Assembly (NCBI RefSeq): GCF_001653715.1
Contig: NZ_LWHQ01000017.1
Location: 19,490-83,489, forward strand
Direction of reading: 5' to 3'
DNA from: Methylobacterium platani
GTDB taxonomy: Bacteria; Pseudomonadota; Alphaproteobacteria; Rhizobiales; Beijerinckiaceae
Length of the DNA stretch: 64,000 nucleotides
Shown: positions 10,866 through 37,243 of the stretch, one piece after another
How the letters are laid out: each line of letters starts with the position of its first letter
Numbering within the stretch: position 1 is the stretch's first letter
The notes under the pieces: generated by a model
What the model saw: the letters and a program-made list of their open reading frames with translations, nothing else
Databases searched by the model: none
What the model was told of the DNA's origin: nothing
Made by a program: the position numbers and the translations under genes

Positions 10866-10899
10866 GACCCGAACTCCCCGCTGCGAACCAAACCCGGGA

Positions 10900-11277
10900 T
10901 CACCACTGGCCGGCTACTTTTCCCGACCGGGCATCCACCATCACGTGCACGAACTGGCCGTCCTTGCGCAAGGCCGTCAGCATGTAGACCAGCGCCTCGT
11001 CCCGGCGGCAGAGGTTGGCCCGCACGATGTCGGCCCGGGGCACGGCGGCGCGCGCCGCGCGGATCGCCGCCACCGGCTCGACCACCCGCTTCTCCGCCAC
11101 CGCCTCGCGCAGGTCGCCGGAGGAGAGGCAGGTCTGGGTGGTCTCGGCGGCCTTGACCGGCCGGGCCGGCACCGCCCCGGTGGCGGTCTCGTCCCGCTCC
11201 TCCGCGGCCGCGAGCCAGCCCGAAGCGCCGGCGAGGCCGACGAGGGCGGGAAGCAGGAGGAGAACGAGCTGGCGCAT
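10900..11277 (-). CDS. Secreted PepSY-domain protein at head of two-component operon
   Basis: The product has about 125 residues. A signal peptide is obvious (MRQLVLLLLPALVGLAGASGWLAAA, shown in part), so the mature protein is periplasmic. The mature part ends in a PepSY-like unit: CLSSGDLREAVAEKRVVEP, a middle helix, then DEALVYMLTAL and FVHVMVDARSGKVAGQW, the typical strand with Asp-Ala-x-x-Gly. PepSY domains are thought to inhibit proteases or to bind sensor partners. I chose ATG 11277, where the hydrophobic signal begins; ATG 11289 is an equal alternative adding four residues. Its place just ahead of feuP/feuQ suggests it modulates or reports to the kinase; this is inference. Confidence 0.75.
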   Translation of the reverse strand: MRQLVLLLLPALVGLAGASGWLAAAEERDETATGAVPARPVKAAETTQTCLSSGDLREAVAEKRVVEPVAAIRAARAAVPRADIVRANLCRRDEALVYMLTALRKDGQFVHVMVDARSGKVAGQW

Positions 11278-13760: not shown

Positions 13761-14498
13761 GTGATCCGCCCAGCCCTCCCGATCCTCTTCGCCCTTCTCG
13801 CCACCCCCGCCCGTGCGGTGGTCGGCGGGAGCGAGGCGCCCGATGCGGCGCTCGCCCGCTCGAGCGTGATGGTGCTGTCCTCCCGCGGCGGGGTCTGCAC
13901 CGGCATCGTGCTCGCCCGCGACGTGGTGCTCACCGCGGCCCATTGCGCCGCGCCCGGTGTCGAGCACCGCGTGCATTACCGCGACGAGGCCGGGGCGCCG
14001 GTGATGCTCGGGCTCGCCGCCCGGGCGGTGCATCCGGGCTACGATGCGGGGGCGATCGCCGGGCGGCGGCGCTCGATCGACCTCGCGCTGCTGCGCACCG
14101 AGACGCCGCTTCCGGCCCGCTTCGTCCCGGCCGCGCTCTCGGAAGCGCCGGTCCCCGCCGGCACGGCCCTGACGCTCGGCGGCTACGGCGTGGCGCGGCC
14201 CGGCGACCACCGCAGCACCGGCACCTTCCGCACCGCGACCCTGCCGCTGGTCGAGCCCTACGGCCCGAGCCGCATCCTGGCCTGGCTGAAGGGGCCTGCG
14301 GCCTCCGGCGCTTGCGAGGGCGATTCCGGCGGGCCGATCGCCGGGTCGGCGGGGAGCGTCGTGGCGGTGACGACCTGGGCGAGCGGATCCGGGAAGGCGC
14401 CGTGCGGCGGCGTCTCGCAGGGCGTGCTGGTCGGGCCGCAGCGGGACTGGATCGCCCGCACGACCGCCGGCTGGGGCGCTCCGGCACGGTGGGAATGA
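13761..14498 (+). CDS. Secreted trypsin-like serine protease (S1 family), first of two
   Basis: The product has 245 residues, starting at GTG 13761 where a signal peptide begins (VIRPALPILFALLATPARA). The mature protein begins VVGGSEAPDA, like an activated trypsin (IVGG). The catalytic triad is visible: His in VVLTAAHCAAP, Asp in RRRSIDLALLRTE, and Ser in ACEGDSGGPIAG. Cysteines flank the His and Ser as in chymotrypsin-fold enzymes. The frame is open further upstream, but that part looks like spurious Arg-rich translation. A second S1 protease gene follows in the same direction 133 bp downstream; the two mature domains differ too much for a recent duplication. Confidence 0.85.
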   Translation: MIRPALPILFALLATPARAVVGGSEAPDAALARSSVMVLSSRGGVCTGIVLARDVVLTAAHCAAPGVEHRVHYRDEAGAPVMLGLAARAVHPGYDAGAIAGRRRSIDLALLRTETPLPARFVPAALSEAPVPAGTALTLGGYGVARPGDHRSTGTFRTATLPLVEPYGPSRILAWLKGPAASGACEGDSGGPIAGSAGSVVAVTTWASGSGKAPCGGVSQGVLVGPQRDWIARTTAGWGAPARWE

Positions 14499-14631
14499 GT
14501 CCGCTCGCGCGGACGTGACGCCGGCACGCTCACGGTTTCGTTGCCGCTGCGGCCCCGTGCCGGTGCGGAACCACACCCTCGGCGCGAGACTTCACTTGTC
14601 GAGCGTGGCCGCACGCTTCTAGGGTGGTCTC

Positions 14632-15501
14632 ATGCGCGTCTCCCCGTCCCGCCTCCGTTCCACCCTGGCCGCCCTCGCGGTGGCCGCGCCCCTCGGCCTG
14701 TGGAGCGGCGCCGCCGGCGCCGTGGTGCGCGGCGAGGTGACCCGCGACCCCGACGGCCTGCGCAGCTCGGTGGTGCGGATCGAGAGCACCACCGGCGAGA
14801 TGTGCTCGGGCTCGCTCATCGCCCCCGACCTGGTGCTGACCGCCGCCCACTGCGTGATGCGCAAGGCCGGCTACTGGGTCGTGGTCGTCGACCGCACCTT
14901 CCGCCAGCGCCGCCTGCGGGCGATCGCGGCATCGATGCATCCGGATTTCGTGCCCGGCACCACGCCGGAGAACCAGCCCGGCACCGACCTCGCCATCCTC
15001 AAGCTCGACGCGCGCCTCGGCCCGGATTTCCGCCCCCTCGATCTCCGCTCTGGCGGCGACATCCCGCAGGGCGACACCGTCGCCATCGCCGGCTACGGCG
15101 TGGTGGCGGAGAACCGCCGCGGCACCGCCCGGGTGCTGCGCCAGGCCCGCCTCGTCTCTCTCGGCGAGCTTCAGGTCGCCAACACCGTCACGGTGGTGGC
15201 CGACCGCGCGACGCTGGCCGAGACCGCCGGCGCCGGGGCCTGCCTCGGCGATTCCGGCGGCCCGATCCTGCGCGCCGGCCCCGGCGGCTACCAGCTCGTC
15301 GGGGTGGTGAGCTGGTCGAGCGGCGCCGCCCAGCAGGGCCGGGTCCGCACCGCCTGCGGCGGCTTCACCGCCGTGACGCCGATCGGCCAGCATGCCGGCT
15401 GGATCAACGCCCGCGTCGCCGAGCTCGCCCGCTTCGAGCCCGGCGAGTCGATGCCCGCTGGCGCCCGTCCCCATCCGTCGGACTGGACGGGAGGCCGGTG
15501 A
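14632..15501 (+). CDS. Secreted trypsin-like serine protease (S1 family), second of two
   Basis: The product has 289 residues. It has a signal peptide (RLRSTLAALAVAAPLGLWSGAAGA) and then VVRGEVTRDPDGLRSSVVRIES, so the activation site is less trypsin-like than in the first protease. The triad is intact: His in LVLTAAHCVM, Asp in GTDLAILKLD, Ser in ACLGDSGGPIL. The C-terminal tail of about 25 residues (ESMPAGARPHPSDW) is polar and Pro-rich. Both proteases probably act in the periplasm or outside. ATG 14632 follows closely on the previous gene on the same strand. Confidence 0.86.
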   Translation: MRVSPSRLRSTLAALAVAAPLGLWSGAAGAVVRGEVTRDPDGLRSSVVRIESTTGEMCSGSLIAPDLVLTAAHCVMRKAGYWVVVVDRTFRQRRLRAIAASMHPDFVPGTTPENQPGTDLAILKLDARLGPDFRPLDLRSGGDIPQGDTVAIAGYGVVAENRRGTARVLRQARLVSLGELQVANTVTVVADRATLAETAGAGACLGDSGGPILRAGPGGYQLVGVVSWSSGAAQQGRVRTACGGFTAVTPIGQHAGWINARVAELARFEPGESMPAGARPHPSDWTGGR

Positions 15502-15572
15502 GGCGCTGACACGAGCTTGACTGTTTCGCGGCCAGGCCGTCCAACGGGCCCCGGTCAACCCCGGAGGTCCCG

Positions 15573-15962
15573 ATGAGCCAAGCCGTGTTCAGTGTCGCCC
15601 GCATCCTCGTCGTGGTCCTGTTCTGCGTCTCCGGCGCCCAGAAGCTGATGAATCCCGGCATGGTCGCCGGCGCGATCTCGGCCAAGGGGCTGCCCTACCC
15701 GCAGGTGCTGGCCTACCTCACCATCGCGGCCGAGCTCGGCCTCGGCCTGCTGATCGCCCTCGGCTTCTACGCCCGCGCGGCCGCCGTGCTGCTCGCCGTC
15801 TTCACCCTCGCGACGATCGTGGTCTTCCACAATTTCTGGTCGATGACCGGCGACGCCGTCCGGACCAACCAGATCCAGGCGATGAAGAACCTCTCGATCA
15901 TCGGCGGCCTCCTGATGATCGCGGCCGCCGGTCCCGGCCGCTTCGCCCTCAACCGGCGCTGA
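15573..15962 (+). CDS. DoxX family membrane protein
   Basis: This is a 129-residue inner-membrane protein with four hydrophobic helices. DoxX family features are seen: VFSVARILVVVLFCVSGAQKLMNPG near the start (quoted in part), then AAELGLGLLIALGFYARAAAVLLAVFTL, and a HNFWS motif before the last helix. The family takes in subunits of terminal oxidases and small oxidoreductase-linked membrane proteins; the exact role is unknown here. A strong GGAGGT at 15561-15566 supports the ATG start. It stands between the proteases and a histidine kinase gene with no sign of coupling. Confidence 0.85.
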   Translation: MSQAVFSVARILVVVLFCVSGAQKLMNPGMVAGAISAKGLPYPQVLAYLTIAAELGLGLLIALGFYARAAAVLLAVFTLATIVVFHNFWSMTGDAVRTNQIQAMKNLSIIGGLLMIAAAGPGRFALNRR

Positions 15963-24661: not shown

Positions 24662-26038
24662 TCAGGGGAGCTGGCTCAGGGCTGCGGGCGGTGCCTCGTT
24701 CGGCCTGCGGGTATCGATCTGCTCCGCGATCGCCGCGACTGGCTGGTACAGGTCGAGGCGCTGATCGATCATGCCGTCGAGTCGGTTATAGACCTCGGCG
24801 ACCGTCAGGCTGCGCAGCTTCCGCCCCTCGCGACGGAAGAACAGGCTGCGATTGGCCTTCGCCGCCGCCCGGAACGATGCCTGGGCCGGCTGATGCGGCT
24901 TCTCGGCCGTCAATTCCATGAACTTACCGGCGCTCGCGGCCCCCAGGAAATGCGCGAAGTAGCATTCCGTGGTCGTCAGGTCGCGCCCGAGGCGCTGCTC
25001 GACCCGCGAGCGGTCGCGCTTCATCATCTCGCCGGCCATCAGGCTCGCCGCGTAGGGGTCGCGGCGCAGGGCCAGCACCCGGCGCCGGTCGGCGTCCTTC
25101 AGCACCACCAGCGTCCCGCCCCGCTTCTCGATCAGGTCGGCCTCGGTCGCATATCCGTGCTTGGCGCCGAAGTTGCGCAGGAGTTCGAGCCAGGTGCCGG
25201 TGAGGAACTGGAACAGCCCCTCGGCAGTCGAGGTGCCGGCGCGGACGCTCGGCTGGAAGCTCGATTCCTTGTCGGCGAGCGCCATCAGGTAGACCGGATC
25301 GACCTCGGTCTCGCGGGCGGCCCGCACGATGGTCTCGACCAGCGCCCGCGGCACCTTCTTGTCGCCGAACACCACCCGGCCGTCCTCGGTCTCCTCCGGC
25401 AGGGCGGTCACCTCGGGCAAGGAGATCTCGGGCAGGGAGATCTCGGGGGCGGGAGAGGCCGCCCGGGGCAGGGAGGCGTCCTGGGCCAGAGAAGCCTCTT
25501 GAACCACGGAGGCGTCCTGGGCCGCGGAGCCGGTCTGGGCCAGCGACATCTCCGGCGACAGGGACGCCTCCCGGGTCGACGGCGCATCGGCGCGGGGCGC
25601 GTCGTCGCCCGGAATCACCGCCTCCGGCGCCGTGCTCGCCGGCACCGTGTCCTGCACGTCCTGGCGCAGGCGCTCGAGGTCCTGCCGGATCAGCGCAGAG
25701 GTGCTCGGAGTCTCCTCGACGAGGGCCGGGCCCGGCCAGTCCGGCATCAGGCCGCGGGACGCGGCGGGCGGACGGGGGGCGGAGAAGTCGATCCGGTCAT
25801 GCGCCTCGGCCGCCGGGGCCACGGCGTCCTGCGGCAGGCAGGCCGCGAAGGCGACGCCGACCGCGAGCGCCGCGGCGGTCTTGCGGGCGAGCGAGGCCGC
25901 CAGGGACACCGTGTGGCTGCGCGCTCTCGAATGATGGCCTTCGCGGGCGGTCAGCCAGCGGATGGTATCGGTGCCCGCCTCGGGCACGAGTCGGCCAGCG
26001 TCGTCGGCGCAGGGCGCCGGCTCCGGGTGAACCCCCAT
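24662..26038 (-). CDS. Lytic-transglycosylase-like (SLT) protein with long disordered linker
   Basis: The product has 458 residues. A hydrophobic segment near residue 50 (AASLARKTAAALAVGVAFAA) is a signal peptide or anchor, placing the rest in the periplasm. Residues about 90-245 are low-complexity, built on repeated units such as EASL, AQDASL and EISLPEISLPEV. The C-terminal 200 residues are an SLT-type domain with the catalytic Glu in YLMALADKESSFQPSVRAG (in part), AEGLFQFLTGTWLELLRNFG and YFAHFLGAASAGKFM. It would cleave peptidoglycan glycan strands. Start ATG 26038 is the first plausible one downstream of an Arg/Pro-rich open stretch; a GTG just before the hydrophobic segment is possible. 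Confidence 0.75.
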   Translation of the reverse strand: MGVHPEPAPCADDAGRLVPEAGTDTIRWLTAREGHHSRARSHTVSLAASLARKTAAALAVGVAFAACLPQDAVAPAAEAHDRIDFSAPRPPAASRGLMPDWPGPALVEETPSTSALIRQDLERLRQDVQDTVPASTAPEAVIPGDDAPRADAPSTREASLSPEMSLAQTGSAAQDASVVQEASLAQDASLPRAASPAPEISLPEISLPEVTALPEETEDGRVVFGDKKVPRALVETIVRAARETEVDPVYLMALADKESSFQPSVRAGTSTAEGLFQFLTGTWLELLRNFGAKHGYATEADLIEKRGGTLVVLKDADRRRVLALRRDPYAASLMAGEMMKRDRSRVEQRLGRDLTTTECYFAHFLGAASAGKFMELTAEKPHQPAQASFRAAAKANRSLFFRREGRKLRSLTVAEVYNRLDGMIDQRLDLYQPVAAIAEQIDTRRPNEAPPAALSQLP

Positions 26039-26368: not shown

Positions 26369-27559
26369 ATGAGCATGCAGCCCGGTCGGCGCGTCGGCGT
26401 CGCTTTCGTCGGGATGGGTGGGGCTGTCGCCACCACTGCCATCGCCGGCATCGAGATGATCAAGTCCGGTTCGAATCGTCTCGATGGTCTGCCCCTTGCG
26501 GGCCATGCCGTGGCCGGGATGGTCGGTTACAAGGATCTGGTCTTCGGCGGGTGGGACCTCAATGGCGACGATCTCGGCGCCGCGGCGGCCGGTCACGGCG
26601 TCCTCACCCGGCAGGACATCGAGAACGGCGCCCAGGTGCTCAACGGCATGAAGCCGTGGCCGGCGGTCGGCAGCGCCAAGTTCTGCAAGAACATCGACGG
26701 CGGCAACCGCATCGTCGCCAAGGACCACCGCGAGGCGGTCGACTGCATCGCCGGCGACCTTAAGCGCTTCCGCGAGGAATCGGGCGTCGACGACGTGGTG
26801 GTGGTCAACCTCGCCTCGACCGAGCGCTGGCCCGACCTCGACGACCCGACGCTGAACTCGGCGGCCGCCTTCGAGCGCGGCCTCGATTCGAGCGACGAGG
26901 CGATCAGCCCGGCGATGCTCTACGCCTACGCGGCGATCAAGAACGGCATCCCCTACGCCAACTTCACGCCGTCGGTCGCCGCCGACGTGCCGGCGCTGGT
27001 CGATCTCGCCAAGCAGATGAACGTCCCGGTCGCCGGCAAGGACGGCAAGACCGGCCAGACGATGATGAAGACGGTGCTGGCCCCGGCGCTCAAGTCGCGG
27101 GCGCTGCACGTCGACGGCTGGTTCTCGACCAACATCCTCGGCAACCGCGACGGCCTCGCCCTCAACGACAAGGACTCGCTCCAGTCCAAGCTCAACACCA
27201 AGGGTACGGTGCTGGATTCGATCCTCGGCTACCCGGTCGAGGATCACCTGGTCCACATCCACTACTATCGCCCGCGCGGCGACGACAAGGAAGCCTGGGA
27301 CAACATCGACGTCACCGGTTTCCTCGGCCAGCGGATGCAGATCAAGATCAACTTCCTGTGCAAGGACTCGATCCTGGCCGCCCCGCTGGTGATCGAGATC
27401 GCCCGCGTCCTCGACCTCGCCAAGAAGCGCGGCGACGGCGGCGTGCAGGAGCAGCTGTCGCTGTTCTTCAAGGCGCCGATGGTCAAGAACGGCCACGGCC
27501 CCGAGCACGCCTTCGGCGCGCAGGAGCGCATGCTGCTCGACTGGCTCGGCGTCCACTAG
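26369..27559 (+). CDS. ino1: Inositol-3-phosphate synthase (MIPS)
   Basis: It converts glucose-6-phosphate to 1L-myo-inositol 3-phosphate with NAD+ as a recycled cofactor, in the cytoplasm. The 396 residues begin with the NAD-binding glycine motif VGVAFVGMGGAVATTAIAG and show family stretches VVVVNLASTERWPDL, SPAMLYAYAAIKNGIPYANFTPS, the catalytic-lysine region VAGKDGKTGQTMMKTVLAP, DGWFSTNILGNRDGLAL and LGQRMQIKINFLCKDSILAAP (in part). The start is ATG 26369. It opens a run of eight or nine same-strand genes with very small gaps, suggesting that the inositol phosphate is the starter unit of a dedicated pathway. Proteobacteria rarely need this enzyme for housekeeping. Confidence 0.93.
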   Translation: MSMQPGRRVGVAFVGMGGAVATTAIAGIEMIKSGSNRLDGLPLAGHAVAGMVGYKDLVFGGWDLNGDDLGAAAAGHGVLTRQDIENGAQVLNGMKPWPAVGSAKFCKNIDGGNRIVAKDHREAVDCIAGDLKRFREESGVDDVVVVNLASTERWPDLDDPTLNSAAAFERGLDSSDEAISPAMLYAYAAIKNGIPYANFTPSVAADVPALVDLAKQMNVPVAGKDGKTGQTMMKTVLAPALKSRALHVDGWFSTNILGNRDGLALNDKDSLQSKLNTKGTVLDSILGYPVEDHLVHIHYYRPRGDDKEAWDNIDVTGFLGQRMQIKINFLCKDSILAAPLVIEIARVLDLAKKRGDGGVQEQLSLFFKAPMVKNGHGPEHAFGAQERMLLDWLGVH

Positions 27560-27561
27560 GA

Positions 27562-28488
27562 ATGGCCGCCAACCACGACGCGGCTGGCGGGGCTCACGCC
27601 CCGCTCGCCCTGCGCGAGCTTCTCGTGGAGCTCAACGACATCAAGCGCGTCCGATCCGCCGGGCGCGACGGCTCGATCGCCGAGCGGCTCTTCCTCCAGG
27701 CCTGGGCGGCGCTGGCCGGCGGCGCCGATCCGGCGGACCTCGCCCTCGACATCACCGCCAAGGCGCTCGCGGCCTCCCGCCTCGGCGACCTCGACGCGGC
27801 GTTCCTCGCCGTGGCCGGCCTCTCCGCGGATCAGGCCTCCGCCGTGCTGGTGCGGGGCTTCGACGAGGTCGCCGGCCCGCTCGACCCGGCCCTCGCCGAC
27901 CGCCTGCGCGCCCGCCTCGCCGCGCCGCGGGAGTGGACACCCGGTCCGCTGCCGCACTTCGCGCGGCTCCAGGCCGACCAGCCCCGGGCCGGCGTCACCT
28001 GCCCGGGCAAGCCGCGCATCCTGCTCGAGCCGCCCGAGAACCATGCCGAGCACTGCCTGACCGTCGCGGTCTACGGCGTGGCGCTCAGCCCGTTCTACGG
28101 TGCCGACCCGACCACGGTCTTCGTCGCGGCCCTCGCCCACCACCTGCACAACGCCCTGATGCCGGATGCCGGCTTCACCGGCGAGATCCTGCTCGGCGAC
28201 CACCTCGATGCGGTGATCGCGACCTTGAGCGAGCGGGCCCTGTCGGAGCTGGACGCGCCGCTGCGGGACGTGGTCGCCGCCTCGCGCAAGATCCTGGCGG
28301 ACGATCGCACGGCGGAGGGCCGGGCCTTCCACGCGGCCGACGTGATCGACCGGGTGCTGCAGATCGCCCAGCACCTGCGGGCCGCCTCGCTCACCATGGA
28401 TACGGTGCTCGGCGAGATGGCGCTCGTCCATGACGGCCCGGTGAAGGGCTTCCACGATCGGGTGCTCGCCGACATGCGGCTGCCGTGA
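27562..28488 (+). CDS. HD-like metal-dependent phosphohydrolase family protein (tentative)
   Basis: The product is 308 residues, soluble and mostly helical. The middle carries NHAEHCLTVAVYGVALSPFY then FVAALAHHLHNALMPDAGF, which resembles the H...HD...D metal-site pattern of HD-domain hydrolases, though with HH in place of the canonical HD pair; DVIDRVLQIAQHLRAASL follows. The N-terminal third (LRELLVELNDIKRVRSAGRDGS) is unassigned. If an HD enzyme, it could dephosphorylate an inositol phosphate or sugar-inositol phosphate. It begins 2 bp after the ino1 stop and is certainly cotranscribed. The exact function is unknown. Confidence 0.5.
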   Translation: MAANHDAAGGAHAPLALRELLVELNDIKRVRSAGRDGSIAERLFLQAWAALAGGADPADLALDITAKALAASRLGDLDAAFLAVAGLSADQASAVLVRGFDEVAGPLDPALADRLRARLAAPREWTPGPLPHFARLQADQPRAGVTCPGKPRILLEPPENHAEHCLTVAVYGVALSPFYGADPTTVFVAALAHHLHNALMPDAGFTGEILLGDHLDAVIATLSERALSELDAPLRDVVAASRKILADDRTAEGRAFHAADVIDRVLQIAQHLRAASLTMDTVLGEMALVHDGPVKGFHDRVLADMRLP

Positions 28489-28496
28489 CGAGGGCG

Positions 28497-28560
28497 GCGG
28501 ACGCCCTTTCGGGTCCCTCGGGGGATCCGTTCGGGAGTCCGCCCGTCCTTGGGCGTCCGC
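28497..28560. other. Long-range hairpin between cluster genes
   Basis: GCGGACGCCC (28497-28506) is the exact reverse complement of GGGCGTCCGC (28551-28560), enclosing a 44-nt loop. It lies in the 133-bp gap between the HD-like and methyltransferase genes, the widest gap inside the first seven genes of the inositol cluster. It could attenuate or stabilise the message. Confidence 0.4.
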
Positions 28561-28621
28561 GCCCGCGCTCTATCTCACGTCAGAGCCTGCTGCAGGGCGG
28601 GCGCCGCGAGGAAACGCATCC

Positions 28622-29794
28622 GTGATCCCGTTCGGGCTCCTCTCGCCGGTGACCGGCGAGGCGCTGCACCACGATACGCCCCATTCCCTGCGCGAGGGCA
28701 AGCGCGGCCCGCGCTGGCCGGTGGTCGACGGCATTCCCTACCTGCGGGTCGGGCGCGACGGCCTGATCGGCGAGGTGCTCGGCCATCTCGACAAGGGCGC
28801 GCCGGGCCACGCCCTCGAAGTGCTGCTGGCCGACCAGGACGATTGGTGGACCGGGCCGAGGGCCGATCCCGCGACCCTGCGCGACCTCGTGCGCGAGATG
28901 AAGTACGTCTCGCTGCGCGAGGCCTGCGCCCGCCTCGGCTGGGGCCGGGTCGGCGACTACTTCGTCAACCGCTGGACCGACCCGACCTATCTCGCCGGCC
29001 TCGCCCTGCTGGAGGCGCACTGGAACAAGCCCTCTTGCGCCTTCGAGCTCGCCTGCGGCATCGGCCATTACCTGCGCGAGCTGCAGGGGCGGGGCGTGCG
29101 GGTCTCGGGCGGCGACGTGGTCTTCGCCAAGCTCTGGGTCGCCCGCCACTGGGTCGCCGGGCAGCGGCCGCAGCTCGTCTGCTTCGACGCCGCCTCGCCG
29201 CACTGGCCGATCGACCAGGCGCCCGTCGACCTCGTGATGTGCCACGACGCCTTCTACTTCCTGCCCGAGAAGGCCCGGATCCTCGAAGCCCTGCGCAAGA
29301 CCGCCGGCGAGGAGGGATGGCTGGCGCTCAGCCACGTCCACAACAGCGCCCGGCCGGGCTTCTCCGCCGGGCACGCGGTCTCGGGAACCGAGATCGAGGA
29401 GCTGTTTCCCGACGGCCTCGTCTACGACGACGACGAGCTGACCCGGGCGCTGGTCGAGGCCCGCGCGCCGGTGCCGGCCGCGCCGGCCGCCCTCGACCAC
29501 GTCGAGGCCTTCTCGGTCGTCTGCGGCCCCGGCATGCGCCCGGCGCCCCGGCCCCTGGTCGATGGCCTGACCCTGCCGCGGGAGGGGGCGCACTTACGCC
29601 TCAACCCGCTCTACGCGCCCGATCCGGCGGGGGGCACCACCATCGCCTGGCCGTCCGAGCGCTACCGCGACGAATACGCGCCGCGTGCCACCTACCCGCT
29701 GCACTCCGAGGGACCCGAGACCCTGGAGATGACGCCCGACACCCTCGACCGCGCCCGCATCCGCGAGTTCGTCGACCTGCCGGAGCGGTGGTGA
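28622..29794 (+). CDS. Class I SAM-dependent methyltransferase-like protein
   Basis: The product is 390 residues and starts at GTG 28622. The first 60 residues look like a Trm112/zinc-ribbon-like leader without the cysteines (LLSPVTGEALHHDTPHSL, WPVVDGIPYLRVG). A Rossmann methyltransferase core follows, with motif I as FELACGIGHYLRELQGRGV, then GGDVVFAKLWVARHW, and the motif IV region VDLVMCHDAFYFLPEKARIL. The C-terminal 110 residues are a separate, unassigned domain. The substrate is presumably the pathway intermediate. Its stop overlaps the next ATG (TGATG), showing translational coupling. Confidence 0.75.
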   Translation: MIPFGLLSPVTGEALHHDTPHSLREGKRGPRWPVVDGIPYLRVGRDGLIGEVLGHLDKGAPGHALEVLLADQDDWWTGPRADPATLRDLVREMKYVSLREACARLGWGRVGDYFVNRWTDPTYLAGLALLEAHWNKPSCAFELACGIGHYLRELQGRGVRVSGGDVVFAKLWVARHWVAGQRPQLVCFDAASPHWPIDQAPVDLVMCHDAFYFLPEKARILEALRKTAGEEGWLALSHVHNSARPGFSAGHAVSGTEIEELFPDGLVYDDDELTRALVEARAPVPAAPAALDHVEAFSVVCGPGMRPAPRPLVDGLTLPREGAHLRLNPLYAPDPAGGTTIAWPSERYRDEYAPRATYPLHSEGPETLEMTPDTLDRARIREFVDLPERW

Positions 29795-30837
29795 TGCCGG
29801 ATTCGATCGGCTGGGGCATCGTCGGGTTCGGCTGGGTCGCCCGGGACTTCATGGCGCCGGCGATCCGGGAGGCCGGTCACCGCCTCGTGGCGGTCTGCGA
29901 TCCGGGGGCCGAGGCGCGGGCCGCCGCCGCTGCGCTCGGCGCGCGGGGTCACGCCGACCTCGCCGGGCTCATCGCCGAGCAGGCGGTCGAGGCGGTCTAC
30001 GTCGCCACCCCCAACCATCTCCATCGCGGCGCCGTCGAGGCGCTGGCGGAATCCGGCAAGGCGATCCTGTGCGAGAAGCCGATGGCGGCCGCGCTCCCCG
30101 ACGCCGAGGCGATGGCGGCGTCGGTGGCCCGGACCGGCATCCTCTACGGCACCGCCTTCGACCAGCGCCACCACCCGGCCCACAAGCTCCTGCGCGACGA
30201 GATCCGCGCCGGCCGGGTCGGCACCGTCACGGCGGTCCGGATCGTCTATGCCTGCTGGCTCGACCGGGGCTGGACGGCGATTCCCGGGCAGGCCAACTGG
30301 CGCATCGATGAGGCCCAGGCCGGCGGCGGGGCCTTGATGGACCTCGCCCCCCACGGCCTCGACCTGACCGACTTCCTCCTCGACGAACCGATCCTCGACG
30401 TCACGGCGCTGACCCAGGCCCGCGCCCAGGATTACGCCGTCGACGACGGCGCGCTGGTGATCGGCCGGACCGGTTCGGGCGTGCTGGCGAGCCTGCACGT
30501 CGCCTATAACTGCCCCGACGCGCTGCCGCGGCGGCGTCTCGAGATCGCCGGCACCCGGGGCCTGCTCGTCGCGACCGACACGATGGGCCAGGAGGCCGGC
30601 GGCCGCGTCACCTTCACGAGCGGCGCCACGGGCGAGAGCGTGCCGCTCCCCTTCGACGCGGCGGCCTCGCCGTTCCTGGAGCAGGTGCGGGCCTTCGGGC
30701 GCAGCGTCCGCGATCCGGCCGGGCGCGACGCCTGGTCGGCCGCGCGCGACCTCCACACGATGCGCCTCCTCGCCCGCGCCTACGCCGCCTCGCCCTCGCA
30801 TCTGCCCGCCCGATCCCCCGTCATGCCGGCCGCCTGA
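29794..30837 (+). CDS. Gfo/Idh/MocA family NAD(P)-dependent oxidoreductase
   Basis: The product is 347 residues. The N-terminal Rossmann domain starts at once (IGWGIVGFGWVARDFMAPAI) with VCDPG after it, then VYVATPNHLHRGAVEAL and the family signature ILCEKPMAA containing the catalytic-site lysine. The C-terminal domain includes ANWRIDEAQAGGGALMDLAPHGLDL (in part), with the family's GGGALMDxxxHxxD pattern. Members oxidise or reduce sugar or inositol hydroxyls (inositol dehydrogenase is one), so a role on the inositol or sugar ring is reasonable. It overlaps the methyltransferase gene and precedes the ycaO gene by 24 bp. Confidence 0.9.
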   Translation: MPDSIGWGIVGFGWVARDFMAPAIREAGHRLVAVCDPGAEARAAAAALGARGHADLAGLIAEQAVEAVYVATPNHLHRGAVEALAESGKAILCEKPMAAALPDAEAMAASVARTGILYGTAFDQRHHPAHKLLRDEIRAGRVGTVTAVRIVYACWLDRGWTAIPGQANWRIDEAQAGGGALMDLAPHGLDLTDFLLDEPILDVTALTQARAQDYAVDDGALVIGRTGSGVLASLHVAYNCPDALPRRRLEIAGTRGLLVATDTMGQEAGGRVTFTSGATGESVPLPFDAAASPFLEQVRAFGRSVRDPAGRDAWSAARDLHTMRLLARAYAASPSHLPARSPVMPAA

Positions 30838-30861
30838 GGCCCGCGGAGAAGTTTCCTCATC

Positions 30862-32418
30862 GTGGACAAACCCACCGCCCCCCGCCCGTATTCCTACGGC
30901 CAGAAACGCATCGTCGAGGGCCTCCCCGGGCGCCTGCCGGACGCGGTCCGCGCCTATCTCGACGTGCTGCCCCCGGGAAGGATCGTCGGCTTCCCGCTCG
31001 CGCCCCTCGACCGCACCGGGGTGCCGTGCTGGTTCGTGTCGCTGTTCCTCGACGATCCCTACTTCGTCGGCGCGATGCCGAGCGGCATCGGCTACGGCGC
31101 CACCGACGACGAGGCGATCATCGGCTCGGTGGCGGAGATCGCCGAGAACCTGATGCCGAGCCTGGCGCTGATCCCGCGCAAGAAGGAGCGCGGCAGCTAC
31201 CACGACCTCGTGCGGGTGTTCGGTGCGAATTCGGTCGCCGATCCGCTCACCCTCGGCCTGCCGGCGGGAAGCCCGGTCGACCGCGACACCGTGCTCGAAT
31301 GGACCGGCACCGTGCGGGCGCGCACCGGAGAGACGGTGCTGATGCCGCTCGACCTCGCGGCGACCGACTATTTCGAGCTGTCGCCGCGCTACCAGCCCTT
31401 CACCAACCTGATCACCAACGGGCTCGGCGCCGGGCCGGACGTCGAGTTCGCCCTCGGGCACGGGCTGCTCGAGCTGCTCCAGCGCGACGGCAACGGCCTC
31501 CTGTTCCGCGCCCTCGACCAGGGCGTGATGCTCGACACGTCGGAAGGCCTGGGGCCAGAGACGCGCGGCATGCTCGACCGGCTGGAGGCGTTGGGCATCC
31601 GCGCGATGCCGAAATTCGCCACCGACCAGTTCGGCTTCACCAACGTCTACTGCGTCGGCTACGACGTCGACCCCTCCCGCGCCCCGGCGCCGATCGCGCT
31701 CTCGGCCTGCGGCGAGGCCTGCGATCCCGACCGCGAGCGGGCCCTGCGCAAGGCGATCCTGGAATTCCAGGCGGCCAGGGTGCGCAAGACCTTCGGGCAC
31801 GGGCCGCTGGATCTCGCCCGCTCGATCACCCCGCCGGGCTACGTCGACGCCTTCATCGAGAAGGCGCTGCCGAGCCTCGACCTCGAGGAGGGGAGGGCGC
31901 TCGCCGCGATGCTCGACTGGATCGACAAGCCGGCCGAGACCCTGCGGGGCTTCCTCAGCCAGACGGTCTATTCCGAGCGCGCGACCAAGCGCTTCACCGA
32001 CCTGCCGACGCAACCCGCGCCCACCGGCCAGGACCGCGCCCGCATCGCCCGCGAGCGGCTGGAGGCCGAGGGCTTCGACGTGCTCTACGTCGACGCCTCG
32101 CCGCCGGGCGGCGGGGTGGGCATCGTCAAGGCGATCGTGCCGGGGCTCGAGGTCGAGACCATGAGCTACGCCCGCATCGGCGAGCGCAACACGCGCAAGC
32201 TCCTCGAGCGCGACCACCCGCTGATCCGCTTCGGTGAGGAGAGCGAGAGCCTGCGCCCGGTGCGCCTGACGCCCGAGGCCCTGGAGCGCTTCGGCGGCCA
32301 GCCGCTCTTCGACGTCGCGCTGGCGGAGACGATCGTCGGGCCGCTCTATCCGCTCTACCGCGAGCCGGAATCGCACCACGCGCCGTTCCGCCTCGAACGC
32401 CGGGGGAGGGCGGCATGA
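30862..32418 (+). CDS. YcaO-family ATP-dependent cyclodehydratase/thioamidation-type enzyme
   Basis: The product is 518 residues and starts at GTG 30862. The YcaO ATP-binding signature is visible: TNLITNGLGAGPDVEFALGH then GLLELLQRDGNG (the ...E....LLE..QRD pattern), and later EACDPDRERALRKAILEFQ with the second Glu/Gln set. YcaO enzymes activate an amide oxygen with ATP, making azolines, thioamides or amidines. The usual companions (E1-like Ocin-ThiF protein, TfuA, dehydrogenase, short precursor peptide) are absent, and the C-terminus lacks the Pro-rich tail of azoline synthetases. Its place among sugar/inositol genes suggests a small-molecule or unusual protein substrate. ATGA overlap with the next gene. 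Confidence 0.85.
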   Translation: MDKPTAPRPYSYGQKRIVEGLPGRLPDAVRAYLDVLPPGRIVGFPLAPLDRTGVPCWFVSLFLDDPYFVGAMPSGIGYGATDDEAIIGSVAEIAENLMPSLALIPRKKERGSYHDLVRVFGANSVADPLTLGLPAGSPVDRDTVLEWTGTVRARTGETVLMPLDLAATDYFELSPRYQPFTNLITNGLGAGPDVEFALGHGLLELLQRDGNGLLFRALDQGVMLDTSEGLGPETRGMLDRLEALGIRAMPKFATDQFGFTNVYCVGYDVDPSRAPAPIALSACGEACDPDRERALRKAILEFQAARVRKTFGHGPLDLARSITPPGYVDAFIEKALPSLDLEEGRALAAMLDWIDKPAETLRGFLSQTVYSERATKRFTDLPTQPAPTGQDRARIARERLEAEGFDVLYVDASPPGGGVGIVKAIVPGLEVETMSYARIGERNTRKLLERDHPLIRFGEESESLRPVRLTPEALERFGGQPLFDVALAETIVGPLYPLYREPESHHAPFRLERRGRAA

Positions 32419-33239
32419 GCCTGCGCTTCGCCTACAACACCAACGGGGCGGCCAATCACCGCCTCGACGACGCGCTCGATCTCGTCGCGGATGCCGGCTA
32501 CGACGGCGTCGCGCTGACCCTCGACATCCACCACCTCGACCCGTTCGCGGAAGGCTGGGCGCGGGAAGCCGAGCGGGTGCGCGGCCGGCTCTACGCCTTG
32601 GGCCTCGGCTCGGTGATCGAGACCGGGGCCCGCTTCCTCCTCGACCCGCGGGCCAAGCACGAGCCGACCCTGGTGACGGCGGATGCGGCGGGCCGCGCCC
32701 GCCGGGTCGCGTTCCTGCACCGGGCCGTCGACATCGCGGCGATCCTGGGCTCGGAGGCCGTGTCGTTCTGGGCCGGCGTGCCGAAGCCCGGCATCGATCC
32801 CGCCGAGGCGCGGGGCTGGCTGCGGGACGGCCTGGAGCAGGTCGTCGCCTACGCCGCCGAGCGCCGGGTGGTCGCCGCCCTCGAACCCGAGCCCGGCATG
32901 CTGGTCGAGACCCTGGACGACTACGCCGCCCTCGCCATCCCGGGCCTGCGGCTGGCTCTCGATACCGGCCACTGCCTGGTGACGCAGGAGCGCGAGCCCG
33001 CCGCGGCGGTTCGCGAGTTCGCCGAAAGCCTCGGCACCGTGGCGATCGAGGACATGGCGCGCGGCAGCCACGTCCACCTGCCCTTCGGCGAGGGCGACAT
33101 GGACGTGGCGGGCGTGCTCGACGCCCTCGACGCCATCGATTTCGACAGGCTCGTCTGCGTCGAGCTCTCCCGCGAGAGCCACCGGGCCGACCGGATGATC
33201 CCGGATTCGCTCCGCTACCTCAGGGAGTGCCGCCGATGA
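32415..33239 (+). CDS. Sugar phosphate isomerase/epimerase (xylose-isomerase-like TIM barrel)
   Basis: The product is 274 residues. Features of the AP-endonuclease-2/xylose-isomerase-like barrel are AYNTNGAANHRLDDALDLVADAGYDGV at the start (in part), EPEPGMLVETLDDY with a metal-binding Glu, LALDTGHCLV with Asp/His, and GSHVHLPFGEGDMDVAGVLDAL with the last His/Glu set. Members include EboE, IolE/IolI (inosose enzymes) and hydroxypyruvate isomerase. A role in rearranging an inosose or ketose intermediate fits the neighbours, but this is inference. It starts at ATG 32415 overlapping the ycaO stop and overlaps the GT4 start by 4 bp. Confidence 0.8.
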   Translation: MSLRFAYNTNGAANHRLDDALDLVADAGYDGVALTLDIHHLDPFAEGWAREAERVRGRLYALGLGSVIETGARFLLDPRAKHEPTLVTADAAGRARRVAFLHRAVDIAAILGSEAVSFWAGVPKPGIDPAEARGWLRDGLEQVVAYAAERRVVAALEPEPGMLVETLDDYAALAIPGLRLALDTGHCLVTQEREPAAAVREFAESLGTVAIEDMARGSHVHLPFGEGDMDVAGVLDALDAIDFDRLVCVELSRESHRADRMIPDSLRYLRECRR

Positions 33240-34471
33240 GGATCTGCTTCGTCAGCCGGCGCTACTTCCCGGCGATTTCCGGCATGAGCGTCTACGCCCA
33301 GAACCTCTTGCGCGAGCTCGTCGGCGCCGGCCACGACGTCACGATGGTGAGCCAGTACCGGGGCGACGCCTTCGGCACCAAGGTCTATGGCGGCGGCCCG
33401 CCGCCGCCGGTCCCGGGCGTGCGGGTGATCGGCCTCGAGCAGCGCGGCGAGCAGGAGAGCGGCGACTTCGAGCGCGACATCGCCACGATGGTCGAGACGA
33501 TCGCGGCCGAGCACGCCAGGCAGCCCTTCGACGTGCTGCACGCCCAGTACGGCTACCCGACGGGCTTCGCCACGCTGATCGCCTCCGAGCGACTGGGCGT
33601 GCCGAACGTGGTCTCGATCCAGGGCGGCGACGGCCACTGGGTCGGCTCGTGCTGCGAGACCCATCGGCTGGCCATGGTGCGGGTGCTGGCCCATGCCAAC
33701 GCGCTGCTGATCGGCGGCCGCTCCTTCGTGGCCGAGGTCTGCGACCGGCTCGGCAGCGATCCCGGTCGCTTCACCATCGTGCCGGGCGCCGTCGACACCG
33801 CGCGCTTCCGGCCGCCGGCGGGCTGGCAGCCGGGTGACGCCGCCGACCCGGTGCGGCTGTTCTACCACGGCCGGGTCGACCGCCGGAAAGGCGTGCTGGA
33901 CTTCCTCGATGCCTTGAGCCTGCTGCGCCTGCGCGGCACGCCGTTCTCAGGCGTCATCTCCGGCATCGGGCCCGACGTGGAGCCGGCCCGCGCGCTCGCC
34001 GCCGATCTCGGCTTCTCGGAGGCCGACGTCCGCTTCACCGGCTACGCCGAGTACGACGCGGTGCCGGGCCTCTACGCGATGGGCGACGTGTTCGTCTCGC
34101 CGACCTACGCGGAGGGGTTCTCCAACACCATCCTGGAGGCGATGGCGGCCGGCCAGGCGGTGGTCTCGACCCACTCGGTCGGCGTCTCGGACTGCCTGCG
34201 CGATAACGAGAACGGGCTCATGGTCCAGCCCGGCGACGTGCCGGCTCTGGCCGAGGCCCTGCACCGGATCGTCACCGACCGCTCACTTCGCGCCCGCCTC
34301 GCGGCGGCCGCCCTGGAGGAGTGCCGGCGGGTCTATTCCTGGCAGGCGGTGGGGCGGCAGATCATGGAGGTCTACGCCGCGGTGAAGGACGAGCGGCCGG
34401 ATCCCGGGTTCGATCCGGACCTGCCGCACGACCCGAATTGCCGCTTCCGGGCGGAGCCGCATCTGTTGTGA
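33236..34471 (+). CDS. Glycosyltransferase family 4, MshA-like position
   Basis: This 411-residue retaining GT-B glycosyltransferase opens with the acceptor-domain stretch MRICFVSRRYFPAISGMSVY and the NLLRELVGAGHDVTMVS helix. HAQYGYPTGF sits in the acceptor site, and the donor domain has RLFYHGRVDRRKGVLDFLDAL and the EX7E motif (AEGFSNTILEAMAAGQAVV). Start ATG 33236 overlaps the upstream stop and has GGGAG upstream. In mycothiol and related pathways a GT4 enzyme (MshA) joins GlcNAc to inositol-3-phosphate; here the first gene supplies that acceptor and the next gene is a PIG-L deacetylase. Donor and acceptor remain unproven. Confidence 0.88.
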   Translation: MRICFVSRRYFPAISGMSVYAQNLLRELVGAGHDVTMVSQYRGDAFGTKVYGGGPPPPVPGVRVIGLEQRGEQESGDFERDIATMVETIAAEHARQPFDVLHAQYGYPTGFATLIASERLGVPNVVSIQGGDGHWVGSCCETHRLAMVRVLAHANALLIGGRSFVAEVCDRLGSDPGRFTIVPGAVDTARFRPPAGWQPGDAADPVRLFYHGRVDRRKGVLDFLDALSLLRLRGTPFSGVISGIGPDVEPARALAADLGFSEADVRFTGYAEYDAVPGLYAMGDVFVSPTYAEGFSNTILEAMAAGQAVVSTHSVGVSDCLRDNENGLMVQPGDVPALAEALHRIVTDRSLRARLAAAALEECRRVYSWQAVGRQIMEVYAAVKDERPDPGFDPDLPHDPNCRFRAEPHLL

Positions 34472-34499
34472 GGTTCGCTCCCGGATCGTGCGCATGTCC

Positions 34500-34523
34500 C
34501 CTCTCCCCGCCCGCGGGGAGAGG
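34500..34523. terminator. Hairpin between GT4 and PIG-L genes
   Basis: Arms CCTCTCCCCG and CGGGGAGAGG around loop CCCG form a perfect 10-bp stem in a 90-bp gap. It resembles one end-hairpin of the palindromic repeats at 4.7, 45.9 and 55.6 kb. It lacks a T-tract, so it may only lower readthrough into the PIG-L gene. Confidence 0.5.
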
Positions 34524-34561
34524 AGAACCCGCGCCATCCAAGTCGTCGTCAGTCGAGTCCC

Positions 34562-35311
34562 ATGCCCACAGCCCTCGCCCTCTCGCCCCATCTCGACGAC
34601 GCCGCCTTCTCCTGCGGCGGCACCCTGGCGCAGCTCGCGAGTGCCGGGTGGCGGGTCGTGATGGTGACGCTGCTCACCGCGAGCGTGCCGGAGCCGGCGG
34701 GGTTCGCGCTGGCCTGCCAGCTCGACAAGGGGCTCGGGCCGGAGGTCGACTACATGGCGTTGCGCCGCGACGAGGACCGGGCGGCGGCGGCCGCGCTCGG
34801 CCTCGGCCCGCCGGTCCACGTCGCCCTGTGGGAGGCGCCGCATCGCGGCTACGCCTCGGCGCCCGAGCTCTTCGCCGAAACCCGGGCCGACGACCGGCTC
34901 GCCGACGACCTCGCCCCGGTCCTCGCGCGCCTGATGGACGAGGGGGCGCCCGACCTGCTCCTGGCGCCGCAGGGGGTGGGCGGCCACGTCGATCACGTCC
35001 AGCTGGTGCGGGCGCTCACCGCGCTCGCACCCGCCTGCCCGATTCTGTGGTGGCGCGACTTCCCCTACACCGTGCGCGCCCCCGACCCGAAGGAGCCGTT
35101 CCGCGAGACCTTCGCGGCCCTGGCGCCCGTCACCGTGCGCCTGTCCCCGGAGGAGGCGGCGGCCAAGCACGCCGCCTGCGCGGCCTATGCGAGCCAGATC
35201 GGCTTCCAGTTCGGCGGCCCCATCGGCCTCGCCGAGCGCCTGGACGCCGAGGGCGCGCGCGAGCATTTCCGCCTCGCCGGCACGATGCCGGACGGGCTCG
35301 CCCTCGCGTGA
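34562..35311 (+). CDS. PIG-L family N-deacetylase
   Basis: The product is 249 residues. The zinc site is seen as LALSPHLDDAAFSCGG (the family's HPDD motif as HLDD) and, near residue 140, GVGGHVDHVQLVRAL with the third ligand His. Members include MshB (GlcNAc-inositol deacetylase), BshB in bacillithiol synthesis and PIG-L itself, so removal of an acetyl group from a GlcNAc-inositol conjugate would match the synthase and GT4 genes upstream. The start is ATG 34562. Its stop overlaps the GTG of the next gene. Confidence 0.87.
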   Translation: MPTALALSPHLDDAAFSCGGTLAQLASAGWRVVMVTLLTASVPEPAGFALACQLDKGLGPEVDYMALRRDEDRAAAAALGLGPPVHVALWEAPHRGYASAPELFAETRADDRLADDLAPVLARLMDEGAPDLLLAPQGVGGHVDHVQLVRALTALAPACPILWWRDFPYTVRAPDPKEPFRETFAALAPVTVRLSPEEAAAKHAACAAYASQIGFQFGGPIGLAERLDAEGAREHFRLAGTMPDGLALA

Positions 35312-35937
35312 GCGACGGGCCGGCCGCACCGAAGAGCCTGGCCGATCCCGGCGCCCTCGCGGCGCGCCACGCCCTCGTCGCGGCCAGTCCCCACCTCGCG
35401 CCCCTGCGCCGCCTCGCCGAGCGGATCCGGGCCGAGCAGGACCGGCCGGTGCCGGAGGCGGACCCGCTGGACGGAGGCGTGAACGCCCGCCTGCTGCTGC
35501 TGCTCGAGACCCCCGGCCCGGCCACCGGCCGCACCGCCTTCGTCTCCCGCGACAACCCGACCGGCACCGCCGCCAACCTGTTCCGCTTCCTCGCCGGCGC
35601 CGGCATCCCGCGGGGCGACACCCTGATCTGGAACGCCGTGCCGTGGGTGATCCACGCGCCCGGCGCCCGCAACCGGGCGCCGCGCACGGGCGAGATCCGG
35701 GCGGCGCGGGCCTACCTGCCGCCGCTCGTCGCCCTGATGCCGGACCTCGCGGTCGTGGTCCTGTCGGGCCGGGTCGCGCAGGGGCTGGCGTCGGGCCTCG
35801 CCGAGGCGCGTCCCGGCCTGCCCGCGGTGGCGATCCCGCATCCGAGCCCGACCTATGTCTGCACCAGTCCGGCGGTGCCCGAACGCATCGCCGCGGGCCT
35901 CGCGCAGGCGGCCCGCCACCTCGGCCTCCCCGGCTGA
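35308..35937 (+). CDS. Uracil-DNA glycosylase superfamily protein
   Basis: The product is 209 residues and starts at GTG 35308, overlapping the deacetylase stop (GTGA). The UDG-superfamily pattern is visible: LLLLLETPGPATGRTAF in place of the motif-I region, TLIWNAVPWVI, VVVLSGRVAQGLASGL, and the second motif AIPHPSPTYVC. The usual motif-I catalytic Asp/Asn context is changed (ETPGP), as in the divergent UDG families that work on other lesions or have no known activity. It has no 4Fe-4S cysteine set. Coupling to the deacetylase gene is probably positional, although a role on a small molecule cannot be excluded. Confidence 0.75.
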   Translation: MSDGPAAPKSLADPGALAARHALVAASPHLAPLRRLAERIRAEQDRPVPEADPLDGGVNARLLLLLETPGPATGRTAFVSRDNPTGTAANLFRFLAGAGIPRGDTLIWNAVPWVIHAPGARNRAPRTGEIRAARAYLPPLVALMPDLAVVVLSGRVAQGLASGLAEARPGLPAVAIPHPSPTYVCTSPAVPERIAAGLAQAARHLGLPG

Positions 35938-36106: not shown

Positions 36107-37243
36107 ATGAATTTCGCCACGCAGGACAAGAACCTCGCGCAGGCCCAGCGGCTGCGCGACGCGGCGGCCGGGACGGCGCCGCCGCGCGACGAGGATCCGG
36201 CCGGGCAAGATCCCGGACAGGATCCCGGGCGTGACCCGTCGGCGCCGGAGGAGCGCCACGCCCGCCACCGCCGACGCTATGCCTGGATCGGCACGGTGGC
36301 GAGCGTCGTGCTGTTCGTCATCTCCCTCGGGGTGCTCGGCAAGCTCGTCTCCACCGTCACCTGGGCCGACCTGCGCACCGCCTTCCTGGCGGCGACGCCG
36401 AACCAGATCGGGCTCGCCATCCTGCTGGTGGTGGTGAGCTACCTCTTCCTCACCTGCTACGACGCGCTGGCCCTGCGCCAGCTCAGGCTGAAGGTGCCCT
36501 ACCGCACCACCGCGCTCGCCTCCTTCACCAGCTACGCGGTGAGCTTCAACCTCGGCTTCCCGCTGCTGACGGCCGGCACGGTGCGCTACTGGATCTATTC
36601 CGGGCAGGGCTTGAGCCCCGGGCGCATCGCGGCGCTCACCATCGTGGCGGGCTTCACCTTCTGGCTCGGCATGGGGGCGGTGCTCGGCATCAGCCTGATC
36701 CGCGAGGCCGAGCCGCTCTCGCACCTCACCTACACGAGCGTCCTGTTCAACCAGGGCCTCGGGGTCGCGACGCTGGCCGCCGTCCTCGGCTACCTCGCCT
36801 GGGTCACGGTCGGGCGGCGCAGCGTCAAGGTGCGGGGCTGGCGCCTGGAGCTGCCGGGCCTGAAGCTGTCCCTGAGCCAGATGCTCGTCGGCGCCGGCGA
36901 CGTCTGCGCGGCGGCCGGCGTGCTCTACGTGCTGCTGCCGGCCGGCCACGGCGTCAGCTTCGAGGCCTTCGTGGCGATCTACGTGCTCGCCGCGATGCTC
37001 GGCATCGCCAGCCACGCGCCGGGCGGGCTCGGGGTGTTCGAGGCCACGGTGCTGCTGGCCCTCTCGGGCCTGCCGCGGGAATCGGTGCTCGGCGCGCTGC
37101 TGCTGTTCCGGGTCTGCTACTACCTGGTGCCGTTCGTGGTGGCGCTGGCCGCCCTCGGCGCCTATGAGATCGCCAAGCGGGCGCGCCTCACCCCGCGGGA
37201 GGCGCCCGACGATGATGCCGCCGAGAGCGACCCGACGCCCTGA
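36107..37243 (+). CDS. UPF0104/LPG-synthase-TM-like membrane protein
   Basis: The product has 378 residues: a polar N-terminus of about 55 residues containing the repeat GQDPGQDPGRDP, then about eight hydrophobic helices. The family features are YAVSFNLGFPLLTAGTVRYW, LTIVAGFTFWLG and SHAPGGLGVFEATVLLAL near the end; PGGLGVFE is the hallmark of the UPF0104 / lysylphosphatidylglycerol-synthase membrane domain, a putative lipid flippase part. The C-terminal aminoacyl-transferase domain of MprF is missing, so it should not make lysyl-lipid by itself. Its 3' end overlaps the PhoR-like kinase gene by 32 bp. Confidence 0.85.
   Translation: MNFATQDKNLAQAQRLRDAAAGTAPPRDEDPAGQDPGQDPGRDPSAPEERHARHRRRYAWIGTVASVVLFVISLGVLGKLVSTVTWADLRTAFLAATPNQIGLAILLVVVSYLFLTCYDALALRQLRLKVPYRTTALASFTSYAVSFNLGFPLLTAGTVRYWIYSGQGLSPGRIAALTIVAGFTFWLGMGAVLGISLIREAEPLSHLTYTSVLFNQGLGVATLAAVLGYLAWVTVGRRSVKVRGWRLELPGLKLSLSQMLVGAGDVCAAAGVLYVLLPAGHGVSFEAFVAIYVLAAMLGIASHAPGGLGVFEATVLLALSGLPRESVLGALLLFRVCYYLVPFVVALAALGAYEIAKRARLTPREAPDDDAAESDPTP

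Follow-up and report, generated by a model that had tools for sequence, protein, structure and literature searches.

Gene content and organization of the cluster

The stretch of DNA analysed here, a 64,000-nucleotide (nt) window from Methylobacterium platani (contig NZ_LWHQ01000017.1, positions 19,490 to 83,489), carries at window positions 26369-35311 a cluster of eight uninterrupted enzyme open reading frames (ORFs), all on the plus strand, that begins with an inositol-3-phosphate synthase gene (ino1) and includes a gene for a YcaO-family ATP-dependent enzyme. A preliminary description of this DNA had listed the eight genes and named their families, and these assignments are borne out by Pfam matches, that of the HD-like protein lying under its cut-off. 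The genes, together with an associated ninth gene that overlaps the last of them, are as follows (aa, amino acids).

26369-27559, plus strand: ino1, inositol-3-phosphate synthase, 396 aa (Pfam NAD_binding_5, 5e-63; Inos-1-P_synth, 2e-34)
27562-28488, plus strand: HD-superfamily-like protein, 308 aa, proposed inositol-phosphate phosphatase (HD_3, 20.6 bits, under the cut-off of 22.5 bits)
28622-29794, plus strand: class I methyltransferase, 390 aa (Pfam Methyltransf_11, 2e-7)
29794-30837, plus strand (alternative GTG start at 29791): Gfo/Idh/MocA dehydrogenase, IolG/anhydrofructose-reductase-like (Pfam GFO/IDH/MocA, 3e-26)
30862-32418, plus strand: YcaO-family ATP-dependent enzyme, 518 aa (Pfam YcaO, 2e-45)
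32415-33239, plus strand: AP_endonuc_2 TIM barrel, 274 aa, ketose-epimerase/IolE-like (Pfam, 6e-34)
33236-34471, plus strand: family 4 glycosyltransferase (GT4), 411 aa (Pfam, 3e-30)
34562-35311, plus strand: PIG-L deacetylase, 249 aa, with motifs PHLDD and HVDH (Pfam, 8e-17)
35308-35937, plus strand: UDG-superfamily protein, associated, overlapping the PIG-L gene (Pfam UDG, 4e-10)

The stop/start overlaps to which the preliminary description drew attention are present in the DNA between the methyltransferase and dehydrogenase genes, the ycaO and TIM-barrel genes and the TIM-barrel and GT4 genes, tying five genes together, and a fourth overlap joins the PIG-L gene to the UDG-superfamily gene. 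The remaining neighbours are separated by 2 nt (ino1 and the HD-like gene), 133 nt (the HD-like and methyltransferase genes), 24 nt (the dehydrogenase gene and ycaO) and 90 nt (the GT4 and PIG-L genes). Many residues are strongly conserved in the alignments of all nine families, that of the partner protein of YcaO described below among them, which suggests that the enzymes are functional; in PIG-L, ≥97% of 92 sequences retain the His and Asp residues of both motifs.

The call of an HD-like protein is weak by Pfam alone but gains something from weak fold and profile matches. The structure model is confident (predicted local distance difference test, pLDDT, 93) and, among the best 50 matches of a fold search, only HD-domain proteins and 1xx7 (a 'conserved hypothetical') were matched with high probability, with poor E-values (best 0.12); each half of the protein also weakly matches HD proteins by profile, and His and Asp residues are conserved. 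The dehydrogenase matches PDB entry 2glx (4e-42). By profile, the TIM-barrel protein matches the structures of UlaE (3e-11), IolE (4e-8) and IolI (5e-5), as well as MJ1311 and L-ribulose 3-epimerase. Most of these enzymes carry out enediolate chemistry on alpha-hydroxyketones, the kind of substrate that the adjoining Gfo/Idh dehydrogenase would supply.

Conservation, distribution and probable transfer

The preliminary description had proposed in advance that scattering of these genes in relatives would count against a cluster. Gene order was the same in all 98 loci examined (96 without repeats), which come from the Alphaproteobacteria, Bacteroidota and Actinomycetota, and the arrangement is therefore more than a chance one. 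The count covers loci of at least 5 kb and leaves out opposite-strand hits, tblastn hits of ≤60 bits or ≤38% identity and the repeats L014, L015, L017, L018 and L019; two further repeats with identical GT4 are still within it (L027 = L065 and L031 = L045). Exceptions in gene content within long contigs are L016, in which ino1 is missing, and L043, in which PIG-L is missing beside the rest. The methyltransferase gene is present in 88 of the loci; the ten from which it is missing are three loci cut by contig ends and all seven Bacteroidota loci. Restriction of the cluster to an alphaproteobacterium, as first envisaged, has thus proved too narrow, and its spread over three phyla and onto plasmids was absent from the preliminary description, as were the dispensability of the methyltransferase, the UDG-superfamily gene, and the partner protein of YcaO and its fusion to YcaO, which are described below.

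Within the genus, 36 of 37 genomes were positive in searches with ycaO. In a family sample, YcaO was found at ≥50% identity in 22 of 199 genomes, with ten more matching weakly (≤33%), and three weak matches (best E 3e-5) came from 24 genomes of the order's other families. With the TIM-barrel protein as a well-conserved marker, 3 of 385 genomes of the class were positive (two from Methylobacterium and one from another family), as were 6 of 398 genomes of the phylum, all six from Methylobacterium; at most six candidates per genome were scored in these two scans, so that misses are possible. The same marker was found in five of five Skermanella genomes versus 1 of 77 others of that family, the genus having been assigned because the TIM-barrel proteins of one genome and of S. 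aerolata are identical. When named genomes were scanned, 192 relatives emerged; of the 80 most like a Hymenobacter query, 33 were titled Methylobacterium or Methylobacteriaceae and the remainder included Sphingomonas, Acetobacteraceae, Lichenibacterium, Skermanella, Hymenobacter, Solirubrum, Rubrobacter and a Mycobacterium.

The sole genus member that lacks ycaO (G012) also lacks any match to ino1, a gene that matched at 86-100% in the five other genus genomes searched as controls. Because the genes are collinear throughout and because ycaO and ino1 are jointly absent from this genome, the view that the cluster is a unit encoding one dedicated pathway is supported. The alternative that Ino1 serves lipid synthesis only is disfavoured by the same joint loss, and also because a second, distant Ino1 could serve other needs: a match of this kind (28-31% identity) was seen in three of six genus genomes, namely the window's own (G000:C43:6826-7377), G006:C35 and G036:C1.

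Three plasmid records carry the cluster, those of Roseomonas haemaphysalidis, Hymenobacter volaticus and Methylobacterium aquaticum 22A (pMaq22A_1p). The window's proteins share 44-73% identity with those of Roseomonas and 41-66% with the unbroken ones of Hymenobacter (70 and 59%, respectively, for Ino1). No methyltransferase was found in the H. volaticus record. On this plasmid (L010) the dehydrogenase is annotated as two pieces (10159-11207) and the GT4 match also falls into two (14428-15659); unbroken GT4 copies are present in other Hymenobacter. In a quick seven-protein tree of 48 rows, the Mycobacterium copy stands beside that of Sphingomonas lenta with full SH-aLRT support, a pairing that indicates probable transfer between phyla, provided that the Mycobacterium contig is no contaminant.

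YcaO and its metallo-β-lactamase-fold partner

Alignment with Escherichia coli YcaO indicates that the frame of the ATP site is kept, apart from the second Glu of motif 2, which is Gln207. Glu92, Glu95, Glu204 and Arg306 are conserved, residues that we take, with the others of this site, to bind ATP, and together with the Pfam match they identify a YcaO domain with a predicted ATP/Mg site. The nearest solved YcaO by profile is MJ1094 of a methanogen (9e-28), presumably a thioamide-forming enzyme that acts on a glycine of McrA, and the cyclodehydratases TruD and LynD follow at 4e-9. The second match of the protein is the NCBIfam model for McrA-glycine thioamidation, under its cut-off (52.6 of 365 bits).

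YcaO proteins are an enzyme family of ribosomally synthesized and post-translationally modified peptides (RiPPs), and a SagD-type model matches the protein, at 76 bits versus a cut-off of 219, so that an azoline or thioamide peptide made with borrowed sugar genes has to be considered. Among the eight cluster genes, however, none has a Pfam match to an E1-like, TfuA or peptide gene, and a PxPxP tail is missing from all eight YcaO family members aligned, the window's included. The gene for the partner protein and ycaO, and ycaO and the TIM-barrel gene, overlap by a median of 4 nt, leaving no space for a precursor gene there, with a remote precursor not sought. A RiPP product is accordingly very improbable and was rejected for want of a partner and of room for a precursor beside YcaO. 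Given these overlaps around ycaO and a set without E1-like, TfuA or peptide genes, the protein encoded here is most likely a small-molecule enzyme.

Directly before ycaO, 41 of the 98 loci encode a protein of metallo-β-lactamase (MBL) fold whose N-terminus is zinc-ribbon-like (CxxC...CPxC), and in four Bacteroidota loci (L032, L033, L034 and L038) MBL and YcaO form one ORF. A representative of the MBL protein has no Pfam match; its structure model (pLDDT 92) matches MBL-fold structures, including ODP and rubredoxin:oxygen oxidoreductase, at E values around 1e-7 (best 5e-9) among the best 50 matches. The fusion into one ORF argues that MBL and YcaO probably act on the same step. In the Methylobacteriaceae the MBL homologue lies outside the cluster: L013, L016 and L106 have it next to the cluster but on the other strand, and in the window's genome it is unlinked (G000:C27). 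A homologue elsewhere was detected in every one of the 37 genus genomes searched, against one weak match in 24 other genomes; kinship confounds this pattern as evidence that MBL belongs to the set of the genus. G012 retains its unlinked MBL gene despite lacking ycaO and ino1, which may reflect a second role or a leftover after loss.

Comparison with known systems

The cluster resembles the mycothiol pathway (MshA-MshD) in its Ino1, GT4 and PIG-L deacetylase and in a possible dephosphorylation of inositol phosphate, and differs from it in adding a dehydrogenase, TIM barrel, YcaO, MBL and methyltransferase. These shared enzyme classes, with GT4 and PIG-L as in MshA and MshB, would suit a low-molecular-weight thiol or redox cofactor built on glucosaminyl-inositol in which YcaO installs sulfur instead of MshC adding cysteine, and the profile likeness of YcaO to MJ1094 and to the McrA-glycine thioamidation model points the same way. 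Against such a product, the cluster's own proteins scored far under the cut-offs of the Msh models (77 bits versus 462.5 for MshA, 20 versus 224.35 for MshB). A search of the genome for MshC gave a single match under the cut-off (260.6 versus 485.1 bits), by a search that matches 14 of 14 controls, over the cut-off in one. The genome also encodes GshB (glutathione) and EgtD (ergothioneine), both over cut-off. Because no MshC exceeds the cut-off and GshB and EgtD are present, a mycothiol-like thiol is not favoured, the nearness to mycothiol that the preliminary description had emphasized is not upheld, and we regard a thiol or redox cofactor of this kind as unlikely.

Inositol catabolism (IolG, IolE and IolI) likewise combines a Gfo/Idh dehydrogenase with a TIM barrel of the IolE superfamily; the present cluster couples them to inositol synthesis and glycosylation rather than to breakdown. 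Neither equivalog was recovered in the cluster, the IolG model reaching 104 bits of a cut-off of 355 and no IolE model matching at E 0.1. In the formation of bacteriohopanetetrol (BHT) cyclitol ether hopanoids by HpnI, HpnK and HpnJ, transfer of N-acetylglucosamine (GlcNAc) is followed by deacetylation, according to the parts of one report that were consulted (PMC12583986), an order of events that the cluster may share. That pathway has other enzymes, a radical S-adenosylmethionine (SAM) step and a hopanoid anchor, whereas the cluster reaches Hymenobacter and Rubrobacter, and a hopanoid cyclitol ether was therefore rejected on enzymes and distribution.

The archaeal stand-alone YcaO MJ1094, closest by profile, differs in that the cluster's YcaO has a small molecule as its predicted substrate and a zinc-ribbon MBL as its partner, fused to it in four loci. 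Mycosporine-like amino acids, made by MysA-MysD, offer an analogy in a predicted cyclitol enone, O-methylation and an ATP-dependent amine condensation; the cluster, unlike that pathway, starts from inositol and uses YcaO. Neither a gene of the dehydroquinate (DHQ)-synthase family nor an ATP-grasp gene is among the eight, the rest of the genome not having been searched for them.

The joint occurrence of Ino1, Gfo/Idh, GT4, PIG-L and a methyltransferase would also suit an aminocyclitol antibiotic, comparable to fortimicin or kasugamycin, in which inositol is oxidised, glucosaminylated, deacetylated and modified at an amine, and eight Acetobacteraceae loci have upstream a gene read, without a family search, as resembling a major facilitator superfamily (MFS) transporter. 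There is no aminotransferase among the eight genes, however, and near-fixation in a genus is atypical for an antibiotic, which makes this product improbable.

Proposed pathway and product

Our preferred, though tentative, reading, to which we give somewhat less than even chances, is that the cluster is mobile and directs the synthesis of a single glycosylated cyclitol, a sunscreen absorbing ultraviolet A (UVA) that may be methylobamine. The route proposed is a non-RiPP one in which an oxidised inositol ring, an amine (or sulfide) introduced via YcaO and glucosamine would yield a UV-absorbing cyclitol, and we infer every reaction, the order of the reactions, the product and its role. Ino1 would convert glucose-6-phosphate to inositol phosphate, from which the HD protein would remove the phosphate; the Gfo/Idh/MocA enzyme would then oxidise a ring hydroxyl to a ketone, and the TIM barrel, of ketose-epimerase/IolE fold, would enolise or dehydrate it to a conjugated enol-ketone. 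The methyltransferase, where present, would cap a hydroxyl. YcaO with MBL would phosphorylate the enol oxygen with ATP and replace it by an amine (or sulfide) to give a push-pull chromophore, MBL, if other YcaO partners are a guide, perhaps releasing or guarding the nucleophile. GT4 and PIG-L would add GlcNAc and then unmask glucosamine. Such a product would be expected to absorb in the UVA and to shield cells living on surfaces exposed to sunlight. The enzyme families, in which many residues are conserved, still fit reasonably well with the scaffold of the preliminary description, one of the glucosaminyl-inositol type that undergoes further oxidation, methylation and ATP-dependent modification.

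In favour of a sunscreen, habitat-telling names occur among the best 80 relatives (Sphingomonas Leaf20, Leaf208 and Leaf230, Methylobacterium Leaf108, Lichenibacterium, a Peltigera lichen metagenome-assembled genome and Skermanella aerolata), and the H. volaticus record gives air as its source. Leaves, lichens, air and crusts are the habitats of some holders, and the genera of Skermanella's family without the cluster are presumably soil or root bacteria. Genes of the spore-photoproduct-lyase family lie beside or near the cluster in three unrelated loci (L009, L037 and L053), as do UDG-family genes in several, and six related loci, mostly Sphingomonas, have desaturase and hydroxylase genes about 6-7 kb away, which we take to be lookalikes of carotenoid ketolase and hydroxylase. 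A PurD-like ATP-grasp gene was also seen near the cluster in six loci (L020, L057, L058, L068, L074 and L098) and is possibly an amino-acid-adding tailoring enzyme.

The leaf, lichen, air and soil-crust names of some holders would equally suit a desiccation or osmotic protectant or a cell-surface glycoside, that is, a modified glucosaminyl-inositol kept as a solute or exported. Flanking families were clustered for the loci outside Methylobacterium together with the Methylobacterium loci L030 and L049; among those outside Methylobacterium, 14 have MdoH-like glycosyltransferases and 10 have NAD-dependent epimerases next to the cluster or close by, which also favours such a product. A plain solute, however, needs no YcaO, TIM barrel or zinc-ribbon MBL, all of which are strongly conserved, and we hold a protectant or surface glycoside to be unlikely.

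UVA-absorbing compounds, one of them named methylobamine, are reported as photoprotectors of Methylobacterium in the portions seen of two papers (PMC9664959; PMC12573535). On the UVA-absorbing cyclitol reading, the product could represent a class of bacterial sunscreen not described before, with inositol as its starting material in place of the pentose-phosphate or shikimate routes that lead to mycosporines, and with a chromophore formed by YcaO and MBL. The cluster would then have passed between phyla of bacteria from leaves, lichens, air and dry surfaces and would provide the genetic basis of methylobamine in Methylobacterium; to this fuller statement we give odds of about one in three.

Several points weigh against the sunscreen interpretation. 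The product and its role are predicted from the genes, and the phosphatase role of the HD protein and the dehydratase role of the TIM protein would rest on distant folds. With MJ1094 as the nearest solved YcaO, the profile points to sulfur as much as to nitrogen, and the methyltransferase is dispensable. There is no background count for the habitat pattern, which products against desiccation or oxidative stress would fit equally and with which Rubrobacter marinus and a tick isolate agree less well, and repair genes flank only some loci, the flank associations having no chance rate. The Methylobacterium UVA absorbers are likened to avobenzone in what was seen of one review (PMC12573535), and the methylobamine skeleton may not fit the proposed cyclitol.

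No account of the cluster was found in the literature searched, which took in few subscription papers. An antiSMASH survey of 62 species of pink-pigmented facultative methylotrophs (PPFMs; Methylobacterium and Methylorubrum) listed terpene, homoserine lactone, polyketide synthase (PKS), poly-amino-acid, pyrroloquinoline quinone (PQQ) and non-ribosomal peptide synthetase (NRPS) clusters, and none like the present one in the parts of the main text consulted (PMC8561711). In the portion seen of a survey of 139 Acetobacteraceae genomes, a YcaO cluster is mentioned in one species only (PMC8776678). The cluster seems, as far as these sources extend, to have been overlooked by standard mining, yet it is near-fixed in a major leaf genus and common to distant bacteria. 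Were its product a UVA absorber, it would explain part of the sunlight tolerance of phyllosphere bacteria, identify the genes behind a natural UV filter and reveal that YcaO, partnered by an MBL-fold protein, can act on a small molecule derived from a sugar; with another product it would still be a cross-phylum metabolite pathway.

Neighbouring genes and other features of the window

Upstream of the block lies a divergently oriented gene with an SLT (transglycosylase) domain (24662-25987). Relatives of the UDG family occur beside the cluster in L030, L039, L049, L052, L069 and L091, including Skermanella and Acetobacteraceae; NCBIfam UDG models match the window's UDG-superfamily protein far under their cut-offs, so that its role may not be base excision. 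The next gene downstream of it (36107-37243) codes for a membrane protein whose LPG_synthase_TM domain is similar to the flippase part of MprF, under the MprF cut-off.

Elsewhere in the window, a low-GC ORF of about 435 aa (12162-13469, plus strand) has no Pfam or PADLOC match. A low-GC island on the minus strand (48093-51241; about 49-54% GC per 2 kb versus roughly 70% in the window) codes for a 911-aa protein that matches PDC-M28B/M28C in PADLOC and has a weak ParA-like domain, together with a 138-aa ORF, and is possibly a phage-defence island.

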